From: Acidobacteriota bacterium
GTDB lineage: Bacteria; Acidobacteriota; Terriglobia; Acidiferrales; UBA7541
Assembly (NCBI GenBank): GCA_003225315.1
Contig: QHZD01000020.1
Span: forward strand, 62,001 to 126,000
Direction: 5' to 3'
Length of the DNA: 64,000 nucleotides
Position 1 is the first letter of the stretch, and each line of letters opens with the position of its first letter. The translations under genes were made by a program, and so were the position numbers. Positions 30,894 through 62,315 of this stretch are shown piece after piece. The notes under the pieces are model-generated. The model was not told the DNA's origin. It did no database searches and was given only the letters and a program-made list of their open reading frames with translations.

Positions 30894-32132
30894 ATGACCA
30901 AACCAATGCTTAGTGCTGAGGCAAGAGGCAGCCTGCTGATGGAATGGCTCCGGCAGCGGGAGGAGGAGATGGCCGCGCTGCTGAGCGAGTTGGTCGCGAT
31001 ACCAACGGAGAATCCACCGGGGAAGAATTATCGCGCTTGCGCTGATTTTCTTGAAAAGACATTGCAGCGAGTGGGCCTGGAATGCGAGCGGCTGGAGGCG
31101 GATCAGCCAAGAGAAGGTTCCCGCGAGAAGCCCAACTGCTTGATTGCCAGCCACGGGCGGGGAGAGAGCGTTCTCTATTTTCATGGGCATTACGATGTAG
31201 TTCCGGCGCAATCTAGGGAGCAATTCCAGCCTTCGAGGAAAGACCATTTCTTGTTTGGCCGGGGATCCTGCGACATGAAGGGCGGGATTGCGGCCATGCT
31301 GTACGCCATTCTCGCGCTTAAAGAATGCGGCGCCGAACTGAACGGGCGAATTGCTTTAACGCTGGTTCCCAATGAAGAGACGGGAGGCGAGGGCGGCTCG
31401 GCGTGGCTGGCGGCGCAGGGAAGATTGGGCCGTGGCGGGATTGGGATGCTTTTGGCGGAGCCGACCAGCGGTGTGGTGTGGAACGCGAACCGCGGTGCGA
31501 TTTCGCTTCACGTCCGAGTGCTGGGGAAATCCGCGCATGTTGGTTTGCAGCACCAAGGAGAAAACTCTTTCGAAAAGATGGTTCAGGTCGTTCAGGGGTT
31601 ACAGGAACTGAAGCAACAAGTGGAGCAGAAAACTACAGGCTATAACATCGGGGCGGATCAAGCACGGCATTCCATCCTGATGCTTGGAGGACAGAGCGGC
31701 GGGGGCGCAAACTTCAACGTGGTGCCGGAGGAGTGCTGGTTCACCATCGACCGGCGAATCAATCCGGAGGAAGACATGGAGGAGGAAAAGTCAAAGATAG
31801 TCGCCGCGCTGGAAAGCTGCAAGCGCGAAGGTATTCGACTCGAATGGGAAGTCTTCCAGGAAGGACGATCCTCGGCATGCTCTGAGGAAGAGCCGCTCGG
31901 CAAAGTGCTAGCCCAAAGTGTGCAAGCCGTTACAGGCGAAGTGCCGCGGTTTGAGTTGTGTCCCGGGCTGCTGGAGACTCGTTTCTACGCCGCAGAGGGC
32001 GTGGCGGCCTATGCTTATGGTCCCGGGATGCTGTCGGTCGCACACGGCCCGAACGAATACGTCGATCTGAGAAAGATAATCGACTGCGCAGCGATCTATG
32101 CGCTAACGGCCGCGGAAATGATGCATCCTTGA
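30894..32132 (+). CDS. M20-family metallopeptidase (ArgE/DapE-like)
   Basis: The 412-residue enzyme has the M20 metal-site motifs in order: YFHGHYDVVPA, GRGSCDMKGG, PNEETGGEGG, LAEPTS and the final VAHGPNEYV. The lid domain lies between about residues 190 and 310. Such enzymes hydrolyse N-acyl amino acids or peptides in the cytoplasm. Nothing in the neighbourhood fixes the substrate. Confidence 0.92.
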   Translation: MTKPMLSAEARGSLLMEWLRQREEEMAALLSELVAIPTENPPGKNYRACADFLEKTLQRVGLECERLEADQPREGSREKPNCLIASHGRGESVLYFHGHYDVVPAQSREQFQPSRKDHFLFGRGSCDMKGGIAAMLYAILALKECGAELNGRIALTLVPNEETGGEGGSAWLAAQGRLGRGGIGMLLAEPTSGVVWNANRGAISLHVRVLGKSAHVGLQHQGENSFEKMVQVVQGLQELKQQVEQKTTGYNIGADQARHSILMLGGQSGGGANFNVVPEECWFTIDRRINPEEDMEEEKSKIVAALESCKREGIRLEWEVFQEGRSSACSEEEPLGKVLAQSVQAVTGEVPRFELCPGLLETRFYAAEGVAAYAYGPGMLSVAHGPNEYVDLRKIIDCAAIYALTAAEMMHP

Positions 32133-32207
32133 GCCCAGCTTATTCTTTTGGAACCATTGCACAGAATCAGAGTCTCGAAAATCACCGGTCACGAATTAAG
32201 GAACACT

Positions 32208-32750
32208 ATGGAGCATAACCTGGCGCACACAATATCGCTTCTCACTCGCACCCCCGCTGCACTCAATGCGCTTCTGCGTGACCTGCCGGAAGCGTGGACG
32301 TACCGAAATGAAGGTGAAAACACGTGGAGCGCGTTCGATGTCGTGGGCCATCTGATCCACGGCGAACGCACCGACTGGATGCCACGGGCGAGGATGGTGC
32401 TGCAATTCGGCGAGGCTCAGACGTTTGAGCCTTTTGACCGCTGGGGACAAGAACGGGAGAGTCTAGGTAAGTCGCTAGGGCAGTCATTGGATGAATTTGC
32501 GCGATTGCGGTCAGAGAACCTCGGCGAACTGCGGGCGTTGAACCTGCGGAAAGAGGACCTTGCGCGGCGTGGACGGCATCCATCCCTAGGGGTAGTTACG
32601 CTGTCAGAGCTGCTGGCGACCTGGGCAGCTCATGACTTAACTCATCTGCACCAAATCTCAAGGATTATGGCTCATCAATATAGGGAAACTGTCGGGCCGT
32701 GGAGTGCATACCTGGGCGTGCTGCAGTGCGCGGGCCACAGCTCTCCTTAG
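32208..32750 (+). CDS. DinB-like four-helix-bundle protein
   Basis: The 180-residue protein has the DinB_2 pattern: an N-terminal helix, WSAFDVVGHLIHGERTDW (first His), and WAAHDLTHLHQISRIM (further His residues), which together form a likely metal site. DinB-family proteins include thiol transferases and damage-induced proteins of unknown function. ATG 32208 follows AAGGA by six bases. It lies 75 bases after the M20 gene and may be cotranscribed. Confidence 0.88.
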   Translation: MEHNLAHTISLLTRTPAALNALLRDLPEAWTYRNEGENTWSAFDVVGHLIHGERTDWMPRARMVLQFGEAQTFEPFDRWGQERESLGKSLGQSLDEFARLRSENLGELRALNLRKEDLARRGRHPSLGVVTLSELLATWAAHDLTHLHQISRIMAHQYRETVGPWSAYLGVLQCAGHSSP

Positions 32751-32941
32751 ATGAACTCTCCAGAACCGACAAACACTTGGTTTAGCCCGACAAAAACGTA
32801 CGTTTCACAATTTCCGTTTGACATAAGCGCAGTTACGGCATAAATAGGGCATGAAAGGACGAGTTTACCCTGTGTGCGCTTGATGCCGAGGAATGTCACC
32901 GTCCCCCCTGCGCGGTGCATGGCTCCCATGAGTTCACTCAC
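32747..32941 (-). CDS. Possible small protein
   Basis: A 64-codon frame from GTG 32941 encodes MSELMGAMHRAGGTVTFLG followed by a beta-like body and ends overlapping the convergent DinB-like gene by four bases. The composition is protein-like, but there is no ribosome binding site and no recognised family. It could be the end of a decayed gene: the frame stays open about 17 codons further upstream. Confidence 0.25.
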   Translation of the reverse strand: MSELMGAMHRAGGTVTFLGIKRTQGKLVLSCPIYAVTALMSNGNCETYVFVGLNQVFVGSGEFI

Positions 32942-33080
32942 TTCGTTGTGAACTTCGTCGTGAAAAGCGATCAGTCGTCGCGGGTTCGCATTTTAGATTT
33001 GGTTTCGTTTGGGTCAAAATCTGCTTTCTCTGCGCCTCAACTGTGTCGTTTAGGCTCGTTCCCGCTTCGGGGAGGAAATC
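32751..33080. other. Intergenic stretch upstream of the 1049-residue gene
   Basis: Apart from the doubtful small frame on the minus strand, the stretch holds only the ribosome binding site GGGGAGGAAATC directly before the TTG start at 33081. GAACTTCGTCG and its neighbour GTGAACTTC near 32950 form a short tandem similarity. No terminator follows the DinB-like gene. Confidence 0.45.
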
Positions 33081-36000
33081 TTGAAGGCCTGCACACTCCT
33101 CTTAACCCGTTTACTGGCAGAGCGATGCGCTAAGTCTTTCTTCCGCCTTACCTGCATTTTGGGCGTCACTCTTTCCCTTGGTTGGTGCCTCGCTCCCGCC
33201 GCTCGGTGCACCGTTCCCTCAGATTCTTTGCCATCCGAGGACGCCAAGGCCTGGTCACCCGAATCGGCGAATCTTACGATCCCAGGCCCGTTGCGCTCCT
33301 TTTTACGGATGGCAGGGATCAGCCAGAAGGTTTTGCCTGAAGAAGTTATGCCTTTGCTGGCTCGCAACGTATTCATATTGGGCTATCAGGGGCAGTTTCC
33401 TAAGGGCCGGCCCTCGGAATTTCTTATTCTCTTGACCCGCTATGTGCAGCAGGCGCGAGAATTGGCAGCTATGGCAGGTCCCGATGGGGTCATTCATGTT
33501 TCTACTTGCGATGAGGCGAAACCTCTGCTGAAAATCCTGGGTTATCGAACCCGGGCCGACTGCGGGCAGCGGAGCACTTTTTTGGAAACCGCCGACCCCC
33601 AGAGAGCGTTTCTCACCATCGACTCTGGATTCCCTCTGCCGGACCTTGAAAAGAGTCTCCAAGAGGGCCGGGCTTTCACGTATTCCTTCTCGATGTCGTA
33701 CGTGCCTGCGCCGCCCGTAGGGATGGACTGGACCAAGGAAGGAAAAAAAGTTGACGCAGTTGACCTGCTCTTACGCGATCCGGAGTTGGCGCGCTTTTAC
33801 TGGGCGCTGGCGCGAATGGATGCCGAGACTTTATCTGCGTTGCAGCAATCGCACGTGCTAAAAAAAATGGTTCCACTAGCCGCAGCCTTGGATTTCTTCG
33901 GCAGCCACATCTGCGTGCGATCTGGGCGAGTGGTTGTGCCTGGAGGATCTGCTGCGGGGCCCGATTGGAAAGAATTGGTCGGAGCGAGTCCTGACTCTCC
34001 GGGAGACTTCATCCCCAAATTGTTCGCGAAGGACACCGGCTGGCTTGCGGCGTATTTTGACGACCTGTCGAGTGTACCCCCATCACAGCAAGCTCATTTC
34101 GCCGAACCTGGCCGGCTGCGTCATTTATATGAGGTGTTCCACGGAAAAGACTCTTCCGATGCTGGAAGGGGCGTGTTTCGGCGGGACGCAGGTCTGTTTC
34201 TTCTGGTGACCCATCTGCGGTGGGGGCCAAGCGGCGACCTATACATTCCTGGAAATCTCGACGTATGGAAGAAAGTCTTTCGTCAGAAGACGGATTCCAA
34301 AATTATCCGCGACTGGGGCCGCAGGGCCGCACACTGGGACAACCCAGTTCAATTGTTGGAAGCCCTGTTCGCGATTTCTCGCGAGCCCACCTACACAGGC
34401 CCTTTGCAAAGTTATTTGATGCTTAATGAACTCGACGGCAGGCGCTCTCCGGGGCATCGCCTTAGGCCTGAAACGGTGGCCCTGCTAGCCGATAAGTTCT
34501 CTGAGTTCAGCGACCAATATGTGCTCTTTTCAGAATTTCCAGATTTGGACGATGCTTCCATCGCCACCTTCCTCCAGGTTATGACTAGCCTCAACGGTAT
34601 TCCCAAGAACACTCTACGGGGCAATGCCTTCGGAACCTTTCAGGCTAGCGTGGGACTCTGGCAGATATTGGCGCGTCAATGTGAAATACCTGGCGCCGCC
34701 TTAAACGATTCTTGGCAAAAGTTGATCGGGCCATTTGGCAAGATCGGCTCTTCAACGCAGCTTTTCGAGGCAGGCCGCACCGCCCTGAAAGAGCTGCTGC
34801 TCGCGGCAACCGGCAAAGCCGATGTTTCTCAAGACAAAATCGTCAATCTGCTTGCGGGCCCACAACAGTCAGCTACGGAAGCGCAGCGCATACAGGAACG
34901 GATCGCCAACAGAATCCGGTCCGTTTTGGATGGGCAGCGCTTGGTTTCTCTCGACACGCTCTTGGCCCTGGGTGACGGCCTGCGTGAGGTCGCCCAAGGA
35001 ACCCTCTCAAACAATAGCTTACTTCCTTTGGCCGGGGAACTCAGGGAATTCGAGATGCCCCAGCCAATTTTCCGAAATAGCGAAAGAGAGGAGTGGGCCT
35101 CGGGAATTTACAATAACCGTCACACGGAATTGCAGATGCACACGAGCCTGGCGAAGATAATTAAGTCGCCGAGTTCTTCCCAACAACTGATGGAAGCCCG
35201 CGGCCAACTCGCTCCCTTTTTGCGAGACACACTCGTAGGGCTCAATTACGCCTACTATGAACCTCCCGGCGCCCAGATTCTCCACCATAATCCTCTTTTC
35301 GTTCGCTCACATGATTTTGCTGGAGAAAGCGTCATTGGCCTGGAACGACTTTGGCAAGCGCCTCAGTTGTTCGGCGCAGGCTCCCCGGCGGGCGGTGGCG
35401 CCCACCTGGTCGGATCGCTTGCCGATTTACCTTTCCTCCTTGCAACCGCGGAGCAGGACTTCATCGCGCCACAAAATGTGCAGGCGCTGATCTGGCGAGA
35501 GTTGGTACCTGGCCTTATGACCAACGCCGTCGTGCCCCGATGGTGGAACGTGAACCAAAATGAGCTTCACGCTGTCAGCCTGTATCAACAGTGCGGCGAG
35601 GAACTTTTGGCCGCTTCCGCTGACAATGACGAAGTGCGGAATAAGGTCATGAGTATTCTGTCCGATCGTATGATTCCGCAGCGCTCCGAAAGAGTGGAGC
35701 GGGGTCTGCGTTCAGGGCACTTACCCGAAGTGCTTTTGCGGCTAATGCCTGCGGACACTTTCTATCTGACGGCTGAATATCAACGAAGATTTCCGCAAGA
35801 GCCCAATTCCTTCGGACCAGCCGGTAACGAGCTGGCAACCCTCTCTAAGCGCTATCCCGACGAAGTCAGCTGGGAACGACTGTCGCGAGACTTTGGAGTG
35901 CCACACCGCGTATTGGCGCAGAGTTACGCGCGTGAGCTGCTGAATCTGCCGCCTTCCCCGGTTTTCATGGGCTACTCCAGCCGCTTGTTGGCTGAGACCT

Positions 36001-36230
36001 GGGAGTCCAACAACCTATACTGGGCCCGGCTGGCCGACGAAAAAGGTTATTCACCGGTGATGCTAAACCGCCTGGTTCCCGAACTCACGCGTCGCATGGT
36101 CGAGAAGATTTTTGCCACTGATTTTGCGGATTGGCCGGCACTGCTGCGCGCCGCTCGAGAAACCGGCGAAGAGTTCCGGCAGGGCAAAATCGTTGCCTTG
36201 TCGAGAGATGACAGTTTTTCCCAGCCCTAG
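33081..36230 (+). CDS. Large secreted protein of unknown function (1049 residues)
   Basis: The TTG start at 33081 is supported by GGAGGAAATC and by a signal peptide (hydrophobic core FRLTCILGVTLSLGWCL, cleavage near AARCT). The rest is a soluble, mainly helical protein without membrane segments, repeats or catalytic motifs that I recognise. One segment is Pro/Tyr-rich (NYAYYEPPGAQILHHNP). It is followed 64 bases later by a VWFA protein, which suggests joint function at the cell surface or in the periplasm. Confidence 0.85.
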   Translation: MKACTLLLTRLLAERCAKSFFRLTCILGVTLSLGWCLAPAARCTVPSDSLPSEDAKAWSPESANLTIPGPLRSFLRMAGISQKVLPEEVMPLLARNVFILGYQGQFPKGRPSEFLILLTRYVQQARELAAMAGPDGVIHVSTCDEAKPLLKILGYRTRADCGQRSTFLETADPQRAFLTIDSGFPLPDLEKSLQEGRAFTYSFSMSYVPAPPVGMDWTKEGKKVDAVDLLLRDPELARFYWALARMDAETLSALQQSHVLKKMVPLAAALDFFGSHICVRSGRVVVPGGSAAGPDWKELVGASPDSPGDFIPKLFAKDTGWLAAYFDDLSSVPPSQQAHFAEPGRLRHLYEVFHGKDSSDAGRGVFRRDAGLFLLVTHLRWGPSGDLYIPGNLDVWKKVFRQKTDSKIIRDWGRRAAHWDNPVQLLEALFAISREPTYTGPLQSYLMLNELDGRRSPGHRLRPETVALLADKFSEFSDQYVLFSEFPDLDDASIATFLQVMTSLNGIPKNTLRGNAFGTFQASVGLWQILARQCEIPGAALNDSWQKLIGPFGKIGSSTQLFEAGRTALKELLLAATGKADVSQDKIVNLLAGPQQSATEAQRIQERIANRIRSVLDGQRLVSLDTLLALGDGLREVAQGTLSNNSLLPLAGELREFEMPQPIFRNSEREEWASGIYNNRHTELQMHTSLAKIIKSPSSSQQLMEARGQLAPFLRDTLVGLNYAYYEPPGAQILHHNPLFVRSHDFAGESVIGLERLWQAPQLFGAGSPAGGGAHLVGSLADLPFLLATAEQDFIAPQNVQALIWRELVPGLMTNAVVPRWWNVNQNELHAVSLYQQCGEELLAASADNDEVRNKVMSILSDRMIPQRSERVERGLRSGHLPEVLLRLMPADTFYLTAEYQRRFPQEPNSFGPAGNELATLSKRYPDEVSWERLSRDFGVPHRVLAQSYARELLNLPPSPVFMGYSSRLLAETWESNNLYWARLADEKGYSPVMLNRLVPELTRRMVEKIFATDFADWPALLRAARETGEEFRQGKIVALSRDDSFSQP

Positions 36231-36294
36231 ACGAGCTCGGCTGGCTCAATTTTCACCGGACCGTTACTGCCGGCAAAAAACAATACGGTGCGAT

Positions 36295-37386
36295 ATGGCA
36301 TACAAACCTATGGAAAAACGATATCTCTTGATCTTGACAGTTCTTTTGGGACTGGTGCCTCTTTCCACGTTTCGGACCGGTGCGCAACAAGACACGACGC
36401 GCCTTCGTGTTGTGGTCAACCTGGTGCAGTTGAATGTGGCCGTGACCAACAATAAGGGCGACTATGTAAGCGGTCTTCATCCTCAGGATTTCGCGATCAC
36501 CGAAGATGGCATTCCGCAGAACATTGCCACATTTGAAGAAGGGAATGGTCCCACAACCAGATTGTTGGACGTTGCTGCGGACGTTGGCAAGAACGGTGGG
36601 GACGAGTCTGCTTTGGCGCAAGGGAGTGCTCGCATGCAAGAAAGCCCTCCCGAAACGCTCAGTTCGGCCATCGCGGGCGCCAATGTCTTCATTTTGTTCG
36701 ATACCAGCAATTACATGTACCGGGGCTTCGTCTTCGCGCAAGATGCCATCGCCGATTTTGTTCGCTCCCTGGAAAGAGTGGACAGAATAGCTTTCTATTC
36801 ATACAGCCGTGACCTTTACCGGGCCGCGGCTTTAACCTCCGATCGGTCGGAGGTGGTGCGCGGCGTGCGCACGAGCGTGGCTGGGGACGATGCGGCGCTT
36901 TATAACTCGTTGTTGTTGACGGTGCAGGACGCCGGCCAGCATCCGGGAAGAAAGGTGATTGTGGTGTTCTCGAACGGCCCAGACAATTCCAGCATGGTGC
37001 CCCCTGAGGATGTCGCCGAGCTGGCCCAATCAGCAGGCATACCTATCTACATGATTAGCACGACTGAGGCCCAGCTTGAGCCAGTTTCTACCGCTGTTTT
37101 TGACCGTATGAGCGCGGCCACCGGTGGTAAGGCCTATTTTGCCAAGAGTTGGCGGGATGAAAAGAAAGCATTTGCCTCCATCCGAGACGATTTAGCGCAT
37201 CTTTATTCGTTCAGCTATTATCCCAAGCCGAATCCCAATCGTGGATGGCGCTCGATCAAAGTACAGCTAATAGGCGAGCGCTTGAAGAAGTATCGCGTCC
37301 GGACGCGCAACGGATATCGTCCCAGACCAAGTCGGTATTCGGCAGGCAATGCGTCGGCGTCTACTTCGGAGTCCGTTCCGAACTGA
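36295..37386 (+). CDS. VWFA-related acidobacterial-type secreted protein
   Basis: The 363-residue protein has a signal peptide (LLILTVLLGLVPLS), the N-terminal strand segment VVVNLVQLNVAVTNNKGDYV typical of the acidobacterial VWFA family (TIGR03436 type), and a von Willebrand A domain (about 120-320). The metal-ion motif DxSxS reads DTSNY, so the last serine is lost and metal-dependent binding may be impaired. LYSFSYYPKPNPNRGWRSI is the typical C-terminal element. ATG 36295 is preferred to the longer frame from 36112, which overlaps the previous gene. Confidence 0.87.
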   Translation: MAYKPMEKRYLLILTVLLGLVPLSTFRTGAQQDTTRLRVVVNLVQLNVAVTNNKGDYVSGLHPQDFAITEDGIPQNIATFEEGNGPTTRLLDVAADVGKNGGDESALAQGSARMQESPPETLSSAIAGANVFILFDTSNYMYRGFVFAQDAIADFVRSLERVDRIAFYSYSRDLYRAAALTSDRSEVVRGVRTSVAGDDAALYNSLLLTVQDAGQHPGRKVIVVFSNGPDNSSMVPPEDVAELAQSAGIPIYMISTTEAQLEPVSTAVFDRMSAATGGKAYFAKSWRDEKKAFASIRDDLAHLYSFSYYPKPNPNRGWRSIKVQLIGERLKKYRVRTRNGYRPRPSRYSAGNASASTSESVPN

Positions 37387-37769
37387 TGCAATAGAATTAC
37401 ACATTGTTGGGATTGGAAGCCACCGCTTCAATATGCTATTAATGCGCACTTAATTGCACGCGTCTCAATTCTCGTTCCTGCCCCAGCCTTACCAAACAAG
37501 CCTAAGTTCCGAGCTTGGCAACATTGCCCCAAGCGCTTTGCGCCGTAAGCGGGAGTTGGAGATTGGCTTTGATATGGTTCATTTTGGGAAGCGTTCTTTT
37601 TAGTTACCTTGTGCGGAGTGCAAGGAGGAAAAAATAATTCCTTAAGTCTTTGAAAACATAGTTCCTTACTATGGGCAAGGGAACGTTTTTGAGCATCTAG
37701 TGCGAAAGCTGGACGGTGGGCCGAAAGTACTATTCCTGTTTTTCACAGATTGGCCGATGATTCCCGTGT
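37387..37769 (+). other. Intergenic stretch with a possible small membrane ORF
   Basis: The stretch is A+T-richer than its surroundings. It holds a 40-codon frame (37515-37637) and AAGGAGG at 37622-37628 not followed by a usable start. GTTCCTT (37651-37657) and AAGGGAAC (37677-37684) could form an imperfect hairpin followed by GTTTTT, a weak terminator candidate on the plus strand. Confidence 0.4.
37515..37637 (+). CDS. Possible 40-residue single-helix membrane peptide
   Basis: From TTG 37515 the frame encodes a short polar start, the hydrophobic segment LALIWFILGSVLFSYLV and the basic end RSARRKK. A membrane helix followed by a basic tail is a common layout for small membrane proteins and for sorting tails. 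There is no good ribosome binding site, so it may be chance. Confidence 0.2.
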   Translation: MATLPQALCAVSGSWRLALIWFILGSVLFSYLVRSARRKK

Positions 37770-38098: not shown

Positions 38099-38389
38099 CT
38101 ATTTCCAATCACCAGTAGTTGCGAGCAGTTGCAAACCGATGGCGAACGAATTGTTGCCGACGGGCTCGCAATAAACGACTCGCGCCCGAGCCCGGAAGTC
38201 CCCCGGTAGCGACCACAGGTTCAGCCGCTCATTGAGTCTCAAAGGATCGCTTGAAACCACGCGTGCGCCGTGGGTGCTTATGTTATCCGTCAGGCCCTCG
38301 TGCGTACGATGGCGAATGTCGAGGCTGCATAGATCCACTCGAACTGTAAGGGGAGTGCGTTCTTCCAGCCGCCGCGAAACCGCTTCCAT
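38099..38389 (-). CDS. PilZ-domain protein
   Basis: The 96-residue protein is a single PilZ domain. The first motif RLEER (RxxxR) lies near residue 7 and the second NISTHG (NxSxxG) follows about 30 residues later, so both cyclic-di-GMP contacts are intact. The frame is open back to 38467, but the extra 26 residues are Cys- and Arg-rich and unlike the family. Ribosome binding site evidence is weak for either start. Confidence 0.8.
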   Translation of the reverse strand: MEAVSRRLEERTPLTVRVDLCSLDIRHRTHEGLTDNISTHGARVVSSDPLRLNERLNLWSLPGDFRARARVVYCEPVGNNSFAIGLQLLATTGDWK

Positions 38390-38678
38390 GGGACACCCGG
38401 GGGACCGTGCGCGCAAACTGAGTGACTGGGCGTCGGGGCAGGAACGACAAGGACATTGTAGCTCCAAGGGACCGGTATGGCTAGCGATTCTATATCCCTC
38501 CCATTTCGCCCGGTTCTTGATATTGGCGAACCGGATACACGATGGTACTCCCGGTCTATCGACGCGACCAAAGGCGGACGAGAGAATCAGCTCAATTCAG
38601 AGAATATGGTCCTAAGGCTCCCCCTCTCTGGAATGCTGACCCCTGGGTTTCCGGGAGCAAGATGAATCGGAGGCACCT

Positions 38679-61085: not shown

Positions 61086-62315
61086 GTGAAACAACAAATG
61101 AAATCCAAAGCTGTGCAAATTCTCGCGAGCGCCCTTGCGCTTTTCCACGGCGGATGGTTCGCACCCGCCGTGCTGGCCTATTCGTTCGGGATGATCGTGC
61201 CGGACATCCGCCTGCCAGCGTCGATTTCAGGCGGCTCGGCTTGCCCGGTGCGGACGCACCAATTGATTTCACCTGGGAGCATCGCCGTTCGATGGAGCAC
61301 TGCGCTGAATACAAATCCCGTAACTATCTTGACGCAGAACCAAACTGCCGGCGGCCGATTAACGGAAATCGAACAGGTAATTGCGCAGTCGCTGGCGGCG
61401 TGGACTGGCGTGAATGGCACGACTGTGGTTCCCGCAACACTCACTCCGTTGACGCGTACTGCGACGCAAAATGCTTGTGGCTCGGATGCCGTGAATTCCA
61501 TCTGTTTCGATCAGGCGGACATGGCCTTTACGCCCGGCGTGCTGGCTTTCACCCGAGTGATTTCGACAGACCGCCTTGGAGTTCAAGTCGGCAGTAGCGC
61601 TGTTGCAACGCAGTTTGGGCAAATTCTCGACGCGGACATTTATTTCAATCCTAGCGATTCGAGTACTACGTACGCGACCCCCCAAGCATTGGCGGCAAAT
61701 CCAAAAGCCTACGATCTGGAATCGTTGCTGACGCACGAGTTCGGACACTTTCTCGGCTTCAGCCATTCGGCAGTTTGGAGCGCGATCATGTTTCCCTTTG
61801 CGCCCGCGCCCGGCACATTCAGCGGAGCGCGGCCAACATTGCAGCAGCCCGATGCGCCGCTAGGCGACGATGACCGGACTGGATTACGCGTTCTCTATTC
61901 TGATCCCGCGGACACCGTACACCTGGGATCAATCAGCGGACGAATTTTACCGGCAAATCCGCTGGCGCTTGCGGCTTCGCCTCCGGGCGTAACGGGAGTT
62001 TTCGGCGCGCAGGTGGTCGCCGTGGACGCGGCCGGCGGAGCGGTTGTGGGAGCGACAATTGGCGGGTGGAGCTGCGCCGCTCCGGGTCCCGCGCAATTTG
62101 ACGGCACGTACGAAATCGATGGTCTGGCTGTGGGCCACAGCTACACGGTATATGCGGAAGCGCTGAATGGAGCGGTAGATCCTTCGCAGTTCGACAACGC
62201 GATTGTCTCGCTATGCCGCAACGTCGTCCCCGACGCGGGCTGGCCGCCGTTGCAAGGTTGCGTTGTCCCTGCAGTGGACGTCAGCTTCACGGCTCGGACG
62301 CGGCCCGGACCTTGA
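61086..62315 (+). CDS. Metzincin (matrixin-like) secreted metalloprotease
   Basis: The 409-residue protein has a signal peptide, a catalytic domain and a C-terminal beta domain of the carboxypeptidase-regulatory type. The zinc motif LTHEFGHFLGFSH (His217, Glu218, His221, His227) and a Met-turn (SAIMFP, Met235) are intact, so it should be an active zinc protease. GTG 61086 gives the frame; ATG 61098 is equally likely. It completes the three-gene secreted set. Confidence 0.9.
   Translation: MKQQMKSKAVQILASALALFHGGWFAPAVLAYSFGMIVPDIRLPASISGGSACPVRTHQLISPGSIAVRWSTALNTNPVTILTQNQTAGGRLTEIEQVIAQSLAAWTGVNGTTVVPATLTPLTRTATQNACGSDAVNSICFDQADMAFTPGVLAFTRVISTDRLGVQVGSSAVATQFGQILDADIYFNPSDSSTTYATPQALAANPKAYDLESLLTHEFGHFLGFSHSAVWSAIMFPFAPAPGTFSGARPTLQQPDAPLGDDDRTGLRVLYSDPADTVHLGSISGRILPANPLALAASPPGVTGVFGAQVVAVDAAGGAVVGATIGGWSCAAPGPAQFDGTYEIDGLAVGHSYTVYAEALNGAVDPSQFDNAIVSLCRNVVPDAGWPPLQGCVVPAVDVSFTARTRPGP

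Follow-up and report, generated by a model that had tools for sequence, protein, structure and literature searches.

Few bacteria are more common in soil than the Acidobacteriota, whose cell envelope is poorly known. In this study, we analysed a 64,000-nucleotide stretch of DNA (the window) from an Acidobacteriota bacterium of the class Terriglobia (assembly GCA_003225315.1, contig QHZD01000020.1), which forms part of a 4.98-Mb, 57-contig genome (G000). On its forward strand lie two neighbouring genes for apparently exported proteins, a pair that is common to many soil Acidobacteriota. The first gene (33081-36230) encodes a protein of 1049 amino acids, predicted to be mostly alpha-helical and belonging to an undescribed family, for which we utilized the working name P1. 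The second gene (36295-37386) encodes a partner of 363 amino acids, a member of the family TIGR03436 (acidobact_VWFA). The start codon of P1 is TTG, preceded by GGGGAGGAAATC, and a gap of 64 bases (36231-36294) leads to the ATG at 36295, the likely start of VWFA. The original prediction for this locus, made from the letters alone, had described this 1049-residue protein, the 64-base gap and a VWFA protein with DTSNY, and all of these observations proved to be real; DTSNY stands at residues 136-140 of VWFA.

The P1 family and the metal site of its partner

Both P1 and VWFA look exported, since the N-termini are hydrophobic and signal-peptide-like in most of the orthologues shown, as read by eye and with script-chosen start codons that are uncertain. 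Searching the profile libraries with P1, we found no match at E ≤ 1 in Pfam and NCBIfam, none in PADLOC (E ≤ 0.01) or PHROGs, and none in phage and plasmid records. When 30 orthologues were compared with Pfam one by one, five families appeared, each in one of the 30 members, with a best E of 0.0086. A tetratricopeptide repeat (TPR) profile gave no match in the window P1 and matched one of the 30 alignment members at E 0.037. Against PDB sequences, the best E was 0.76 with the single sequence and 0.098 with a profile; superoxide dismutase sequence matches (E 0.76 and about 0.1) spanned some 95 residues and were attributed to chance. The structure model of P1, based on 30 aligned sequences with a mean column identity of 56%, was mostly helical, with a mean predicted local distance difference test score (pLDDT) of 79.5 and a predicted template modelling score (pTM) of 0.80. 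Foldseek returned a best E of 0.31 in the PDB and of 0.022 (probability 0.11) among viral structures, with no fold match below 0.001 in either, and VIA, with the whole model as query, reached at best a Z of 5.5 over 189 residues at a root-mean-square deviation of 6.0. Since the model was searched whole, single-domain relatives may have been missed. The claim that P1 belongs to no recognised family was thus upheld, as neither the profile nor the structure searches revealed a clear known domain.

P1 is a member of an undescribed family spread across the Acidobacteriota. Homologues with an open frame exist at identities as low as 37-42% across about 970 residues, which excludes that P1 is a chance open reading frame (ORF). 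The P1 query matched 23 of 61 related genomes, with 13 matches among the 36 genomes of the genus. The nearest named relative is Acidobacteria bacterium 13_2_20CM_57_17 (97%), and further relatives include Candidatus Acidiferrum typicum and the named isolate Edaphobacter aggregans DSM 19364. Scanning the genome collection for a sequence pattern, which detects close relatives only, confirmed 33 P1 loci, all in acidobacterial records. For deeper searches of Acidobacteriota genomes, a 30-row P1 profile was employed, and 43 of 396 genomes of the phylum matched. Full-length P1 (>1000 bits) was found in 20 of them, all from the class of the window; the other 23, elsewhere in the phylum, gave weak matches (best 29-152 bits), mostly to residues ~130-400. 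In these hidden Markov model (HMM) matches, the stretch most commonly shared with the distant homologues is residues ~196-400 (33666-34280, forward strand). From 19 of the 23 weak-match genomes we took 20 distant loci, leaving out G140, G165, G270 and G342. Five of seven distant homologues scanned carry TPRs (L056, L057, L124, L126 and L132, not L127 and L130), and the TPRs of three score 54-82 bits on the PrsT/PEP_TPR_lipo model. A VWA-like domain ahead of the TPRs was considered in L056, L057, L124, L132 and L058, and its probability in the profile comparison was below 1%; therefore, L126 alone was counted as a fusion with VWFA. Genome G019 also holds a second, distant P1 homologue as two overlapping ORFs (L056:7812-12874), which may reflect decay of this copy or an error in sequencing.

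The window VWFA scored 152 bits against the TIGR03436 cut-off of 81.25, and its residues 36-342 cover positions 2-322 of the model. Its structure model has the VWA fold, with Foldseek matches that include integrin I domains, BatB and many others. It matched no PADLOC family at E ≤ 0.01 and gave two weak PHROGs matches (E 0.04 and 0.091). VWA domains with a metal ion-dependent adhesion site (MIDAS) carry a Thr in loop 2 (motif II) and an Asp in loop 3 (motif III). In the sequence and the alignment, all three motifs of the window VWFA, on the forward strand, depart from the canonical MIDAS: motif I (36700-36714) reads DTSNY instead of DxSxS, motif II (36883-36894) GDDA instead of GxT, and motif III (36970-36987) SNGPDN instead of [T/S]DG. 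The assignment of DxSxS to motif I of MIDAS VWA domains follows PMC9512821.

All complete close partners that were read have DTSNY or DTSNF as motif I together with SNG in motif III. In motif II, GDDA predominates; three loci have GADA or GDSA, and GDDT, GDET or GDDS occurs at the most divergent loci (L052-L055, L089, L090 and L093, two of which come from records titled Bryobacterales). Hence the last Ser and the loop-3 Asp are altered in every complete close partner, and the Thr is retained in five of the most divergent. The distant partner set comprised 20 loci with a VWFA match of at least 60 bits (L056 and L124-L143 minus L135), aligned together with the window VWFA. Motif I was legible in 16 of these 20 loci, as DxSxS in 12 and DxTxS in 4, and all 16 have GxT and [T/S]DG; some rows of this alignment are gapped a few residues before the Asp, and a second partial domain of L138, which has no motifs II and III, was excluded. 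The pattern points to a loss in steps, with the last Ser and the Asp ligand disappearing before the Thr. In the window genome itself, 17 TIGR03436 matches were present (L190-L206, two of them in one frame). Among the paralogues with a legible motif I, at least two are altered (DFSAM and DNSTM), and DTSNS, DFSGS and DSSMS are intact. The altered metal site singled out in the original prediction is therefore real and fixed in the clade, but the alteration is shared with these paralogues of the same genome; as far as the sequences tell, what is special is its fixation beside P1 and not the alteration as such.

Co-occurrence of P1 and VWFA

The pairing of the two genes is near-obligatory. Our locus set held 82 loci, after 10 with identical P1 ends had been removed from 92, and 80 were informative, L060 and L135 having no usable 3' room. 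A VWFA match of at least 60 bits lies 3' of P1 on the same strand in 77 of the 82 loci, including L126, and the pair is found in 78 of the 80 informative loci, many of which are close relatives and not independent of each other. The 78 include L045, where the VWFA gene is cut by the contig end; in L056, P1 is split, and its second half sits between the P1 start and VWFA. L126 is one fused ORF of 1281 amino acids that joins TPRs, the P1 core and a TIGR03436 domain (157 bits). For L060, another contig of the same genome (G029) carries the end of P1 followed by VWFA. In nearly all informative loci, then, the two genes do not occur independently, a point for which the original prediction had suggested a neighbourhood survey.

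Genome-wide counts gave the same picture. A close VWFA (E ≤ 1e-60) was detected in exactly those 20 of 396 genomes of the phylum that have full-length P1, with only the best few candidates per genome scored (2 and 5). Among the 61 relatives, 21 genomes have a full or nearly full P1 (in pieces in G029) and 19 have VWFA; in the two P1 genomes without a counted VWFA (G028 and G030), the contig ends within the VWFA gene. The distance matrices of P1 and VWFA across 36 loci were correlated with r = 0.954, a value reached in 0 of 999 permutations.

In an all-versus-all ORF comparison, the sole cluster present in all 82 loci was P1 and VWFA together, most likely placed in one cluster via the fusion. 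The next cluster, in 58 loci, surrounds P1 entirely on the strand opposite to it and seems to consist of shadow ORFs. The third comprises 20 loci on both strands, and the member scanned as an example belongs to an outer-membrane beta-barrel family. The pair is followed in 10 loci by another gene, for a protein of about 970-1000 amino acids (for example L127:596-3610, L129:601-3618 and L130:8120-10975), and the protein of L127, scanned with Pfam and NCBIfam as an example, combines VWFA with TPRs. The ancestral cluster may thus have had three genes.

The inserted segment and transfer between genomes

The pair lies within a segment of about 5.6 kb (32133-37707) that contains a DinB-like gene, a leader, P1 and VWFA and is missing at the same site in six congeners. 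In these congeners (G008, G011, G017, G023, G024 and G029), the M20-like gene (30942-32110 in the window) is followed after 148-348 bases by the sequence that starts at window positions 37708-37769. The segment is common to G013, where it is whole, and G028, where it runs up to the contig end. Among the empty-site congeners, G011, G017 and G029 carry P1 on other contigs, and no match was obtained in G008, G023 and G024. The suggestion that the pair arrived as an acquired unit is in line with this site. No direct repeats linking the segment ends were found among the matches listed, the closest pair (33155/37580) being 75% identical over 20 bases, with the first copy within P1. The Pfam match DinB_2 marks a protein at 32208-32750 (forward strand); it was not found at P1 loci outside the lineage of the window and therefore stands outside the conserved pair.

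Alignments revealed that a 5' leader of about 315 bases (32766-33080, forward strand) travels with the pair among chromosomal sites. Leaders from different sites share 70-85% identity across some 300-400 bases, and the best-conserved part lies about 60-110 bases upstream of the start codon. From the sequence and the alignment, we read a promoter-like TTGACA-17-TAAATA at 32818-32846 (forward strand); TTTGACA is present in all 9 aligned leaders and TAAATA in 6 of 9. A consensus promoter scan omits this element, as the scan requires T as the last base. A regulatory RNA in the leader was considered and dropped, since Rfam gave zero matches at E ≤ 1. The low coding density noted earlier at both ends of the pair as a sign of acquisition was half right: the 5' gap is this conserved leader, and the 3' gap falls at the margin of the inserted DNA.

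The pair probably moves horizontally, because the segment is absent at the congener site, because the pair occupies other sites in the genus, and because its tree conflicts with that of housekeeping genes. Its distribution in the genus is patchy (13 of 36 genomes). The clearest sign of transfer comes from G019. Two joined housekeeping proteins of this genome are 91-92% identical to those of G018, G025 and G030 and 88% to those of G000 and G011, whereas its P1 is 62-64% identical to the former three and 86-89% to the latter two, and its VWFA is 66% identical to those of G018 and G025 and 85% to that of G000. A grouping of the G019 P1 with the clade of G018, G025 and G030 was rejected by the approximately unbiased (AU) test (p = 0.0034). 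Between G018 and G025, the identities are 92% for the housekeeping proteins, 98% for P1 and 99% for VWFA. We also observed, in G019, a gene of the phage integrase family (L040:1117-2319) some 4.7 kb upstream of the pair. The Edaphobacter-like loci (L069, L072, L088, L092 and L145) have shared flanks, as expected from vertical inheritance. Part of the transfer signal could be produced by wrongly binned contigs in metagenome-assembled genomes; the insertion itself is on a 192-kb contig. In the codon and GC comparison with other genes, the composition of the pair is only mildly atypical: P1 and VWFA have GC contents of 0.559 and 0.544 and third-position GC contents (GC3) of 0.611 and 0.609, against a GC3 of 0.622-0.731 in correctly framed comparison genes (an amidohydrolase gene was left out). 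Just past the 3' edge of the segment lies a PilZ-domain gene (38099-38467), whose sequence is also present at the empty site of the congeners.

A putative exported module and its alternatives

The joint inheritance and the probable joint transfer suggest that the pair is an undescribed two-part envelope module. We lean, with slightly better than even confidence, towards a two-gene exported module in which P1 and VWFA form one complex and VWFA is independent of metal. This proposal starts from the observed gene order, co-occurrence, fixed metal-site change, single fusion, insertion site and tree conflict, from which we infer a complex, the loss of metal binding, co-transcription, the export and compartment of both proteins and a role in the envelope. 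One leader and promoter would drive both genes, and signal peptides would carry both proteins across the inner membrane. They would assemble, periplasmically or on the outside of the cell, into a stable heteromeric complex with P1 as its large alpha-helical body, and VWFA would dock onto P1 or a third partner through a contact without need for the MIDAS metal ion. Our best guess for the role of such a complex is envelope binding or assembly. In deeper Acidobacteriota, the module looks larger, with N-terminal TPRs in several P1 homologues, a canonical-type VWFA site and the further protein of 10 loci; the Terriglobia/Bryobacterales form would be its descendant, streamlined, no longer dependent on metal and passed from genome to genome as a cassette. 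A bolder version, in which P1 is a new family and fold and the pair a phylum-specific envelope machine, reduced from an ancestral assembly of TPR-P1, canonical VWFA and VWFA-TPR to a two-gene, metal-independent mobile cassette in Terriglobia/Bryobacterales, appears doubtful to us.

Several points weigh against the exported module. The fusion is one case in 82 loci. TPRs occur in 5 of 7 distant homologues but not in the window P1, so that the idea of a scaffold depends on predicted helices for which no fold match was obtained. No VWFA match was found in the 7.5-8 kb of 3' sequence of L057 and L058; therefore, a distant P1 is able to lack a neighbouring VWFA. The altered motif I of other paralogues means that an altered site alone implies no special role, and the distance correlation fits co-inheritance and is no proof of contact.

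The idea of the original prediction, a surface system, can be worded as an adhesin, with P1 exposed on the cell's outer side and VWFA serving as a ligand-binding module with altered specificity. The signal-like N-termini of both proteins and the resemblance of the VWFA model to integrin I domains, BatB and many further VWA domains would suit it, but inspection by eye revealed no surface anchor, sorting signal or conserved lipobox in P1 and VWFA. Moreover, VWA adhesion is commonly metal-dependent, whereas the site is altered here, and according to PMC9512821 the periplasmic McaA of Magnetospirillum needs an intact site for localisation and function. We regard an adhesin as improbable. We give the same low chance to a mobile competition or defence cassette, in which P1 would be an exported effector or would block a receptor, with VWFA as its partner or guard, and which would pass from strain to strain as other fitness cassettes do. 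The patchy distribution, the inserted segment with its tree conflict and the phage-integrase-family gene near the pair in one congener point that way; on the other side stand the lack of PADLOC matches for the window pair (the distant L057 has a single weak one, in its TPR region, at E 0.00036), the absence of P1 and the two weak VWFA matches in PHROGs, the lack of P1 matches in phage and plasmid records, the absence of any toxin or immunity domain in the pair by Pfam and NCBIfam, and the 56% mean column identity of the 30 P1 rows. Least probable, by a small step, is that P1 is an enzyme, for example on the cell wall or an extracellular polymer, with VWFA as a targeting or maturation factor. 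The 30 P1 sequences, one of them a fragment from about residue 303, share 76 invariant columns, with many R, D, H, Y and W at 715-822 and 972-981; however, the invariant residues also include many G, P and W that are possibly structural, and P1 has no enzyme family in Pfam or NCBIfam and no fold match.

The proposed exported module of P1 and VWFA resembles known systems in part. By score and by coverage of nearly the whole model, the window VWFA is a TIGR03436 protein, but it belongs to a distinct close set that is fixed beside P1 with a fixed altered site. BatA/BatB-type VWA proteins belong to aerotolerance operons with a MoxR ATPase. The window VWFA shares the VWA fold with them, and BatB (3ibs) is among its Foldseek matches (E 5.3e-9); yet it scores 31.2 bits on the BatA model NF047508, whose cut-off is 380, and no further ORF cluster recurs in all 82 P1 loci, although no search was aimed at MoxR. 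Like the pair, McaA/McaB of Magnetospirillum is a two-protein system around an exported VWA protein, but McaA has an intact, essential MIDAS and a transmembrane segment (PMC9512821). The TPRs of the three distant P1 homologues recall PrsT/PEP_TPR_lipo proteins, but their scores lie far under the cut-off of 312, and the window P1 has no TPR profile match. In titles and abstract openings of the literature on acidobacterial and VWA-domain proteins, we found no description of the pair. Thus a VWA protein with a partner is of a known kind, whereas the libraries and literature searched yielded neither this partner family nor the fixed altered site nor the mobile form with two genes. Overall, the interpretation in the original prediction was partly supported.

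The near-obligatory pair, present in the isolate Edaphobacter aggregans DSM 19364, offers a concrete handle on the acidobacterial envelope, and the altered and canonical-type sites among its relatives provide a way to ask how a VWA domain turns metal-independent. Annotation, too, has a gap here that can be closed at once, since neither Pfam nor NCBIfam offers a model for this phylum-wide family. Away from the pair, an ORF at window positions 61086-62315 contains HEFGHFLGFSHS, which resembles a zinc-protease motif.

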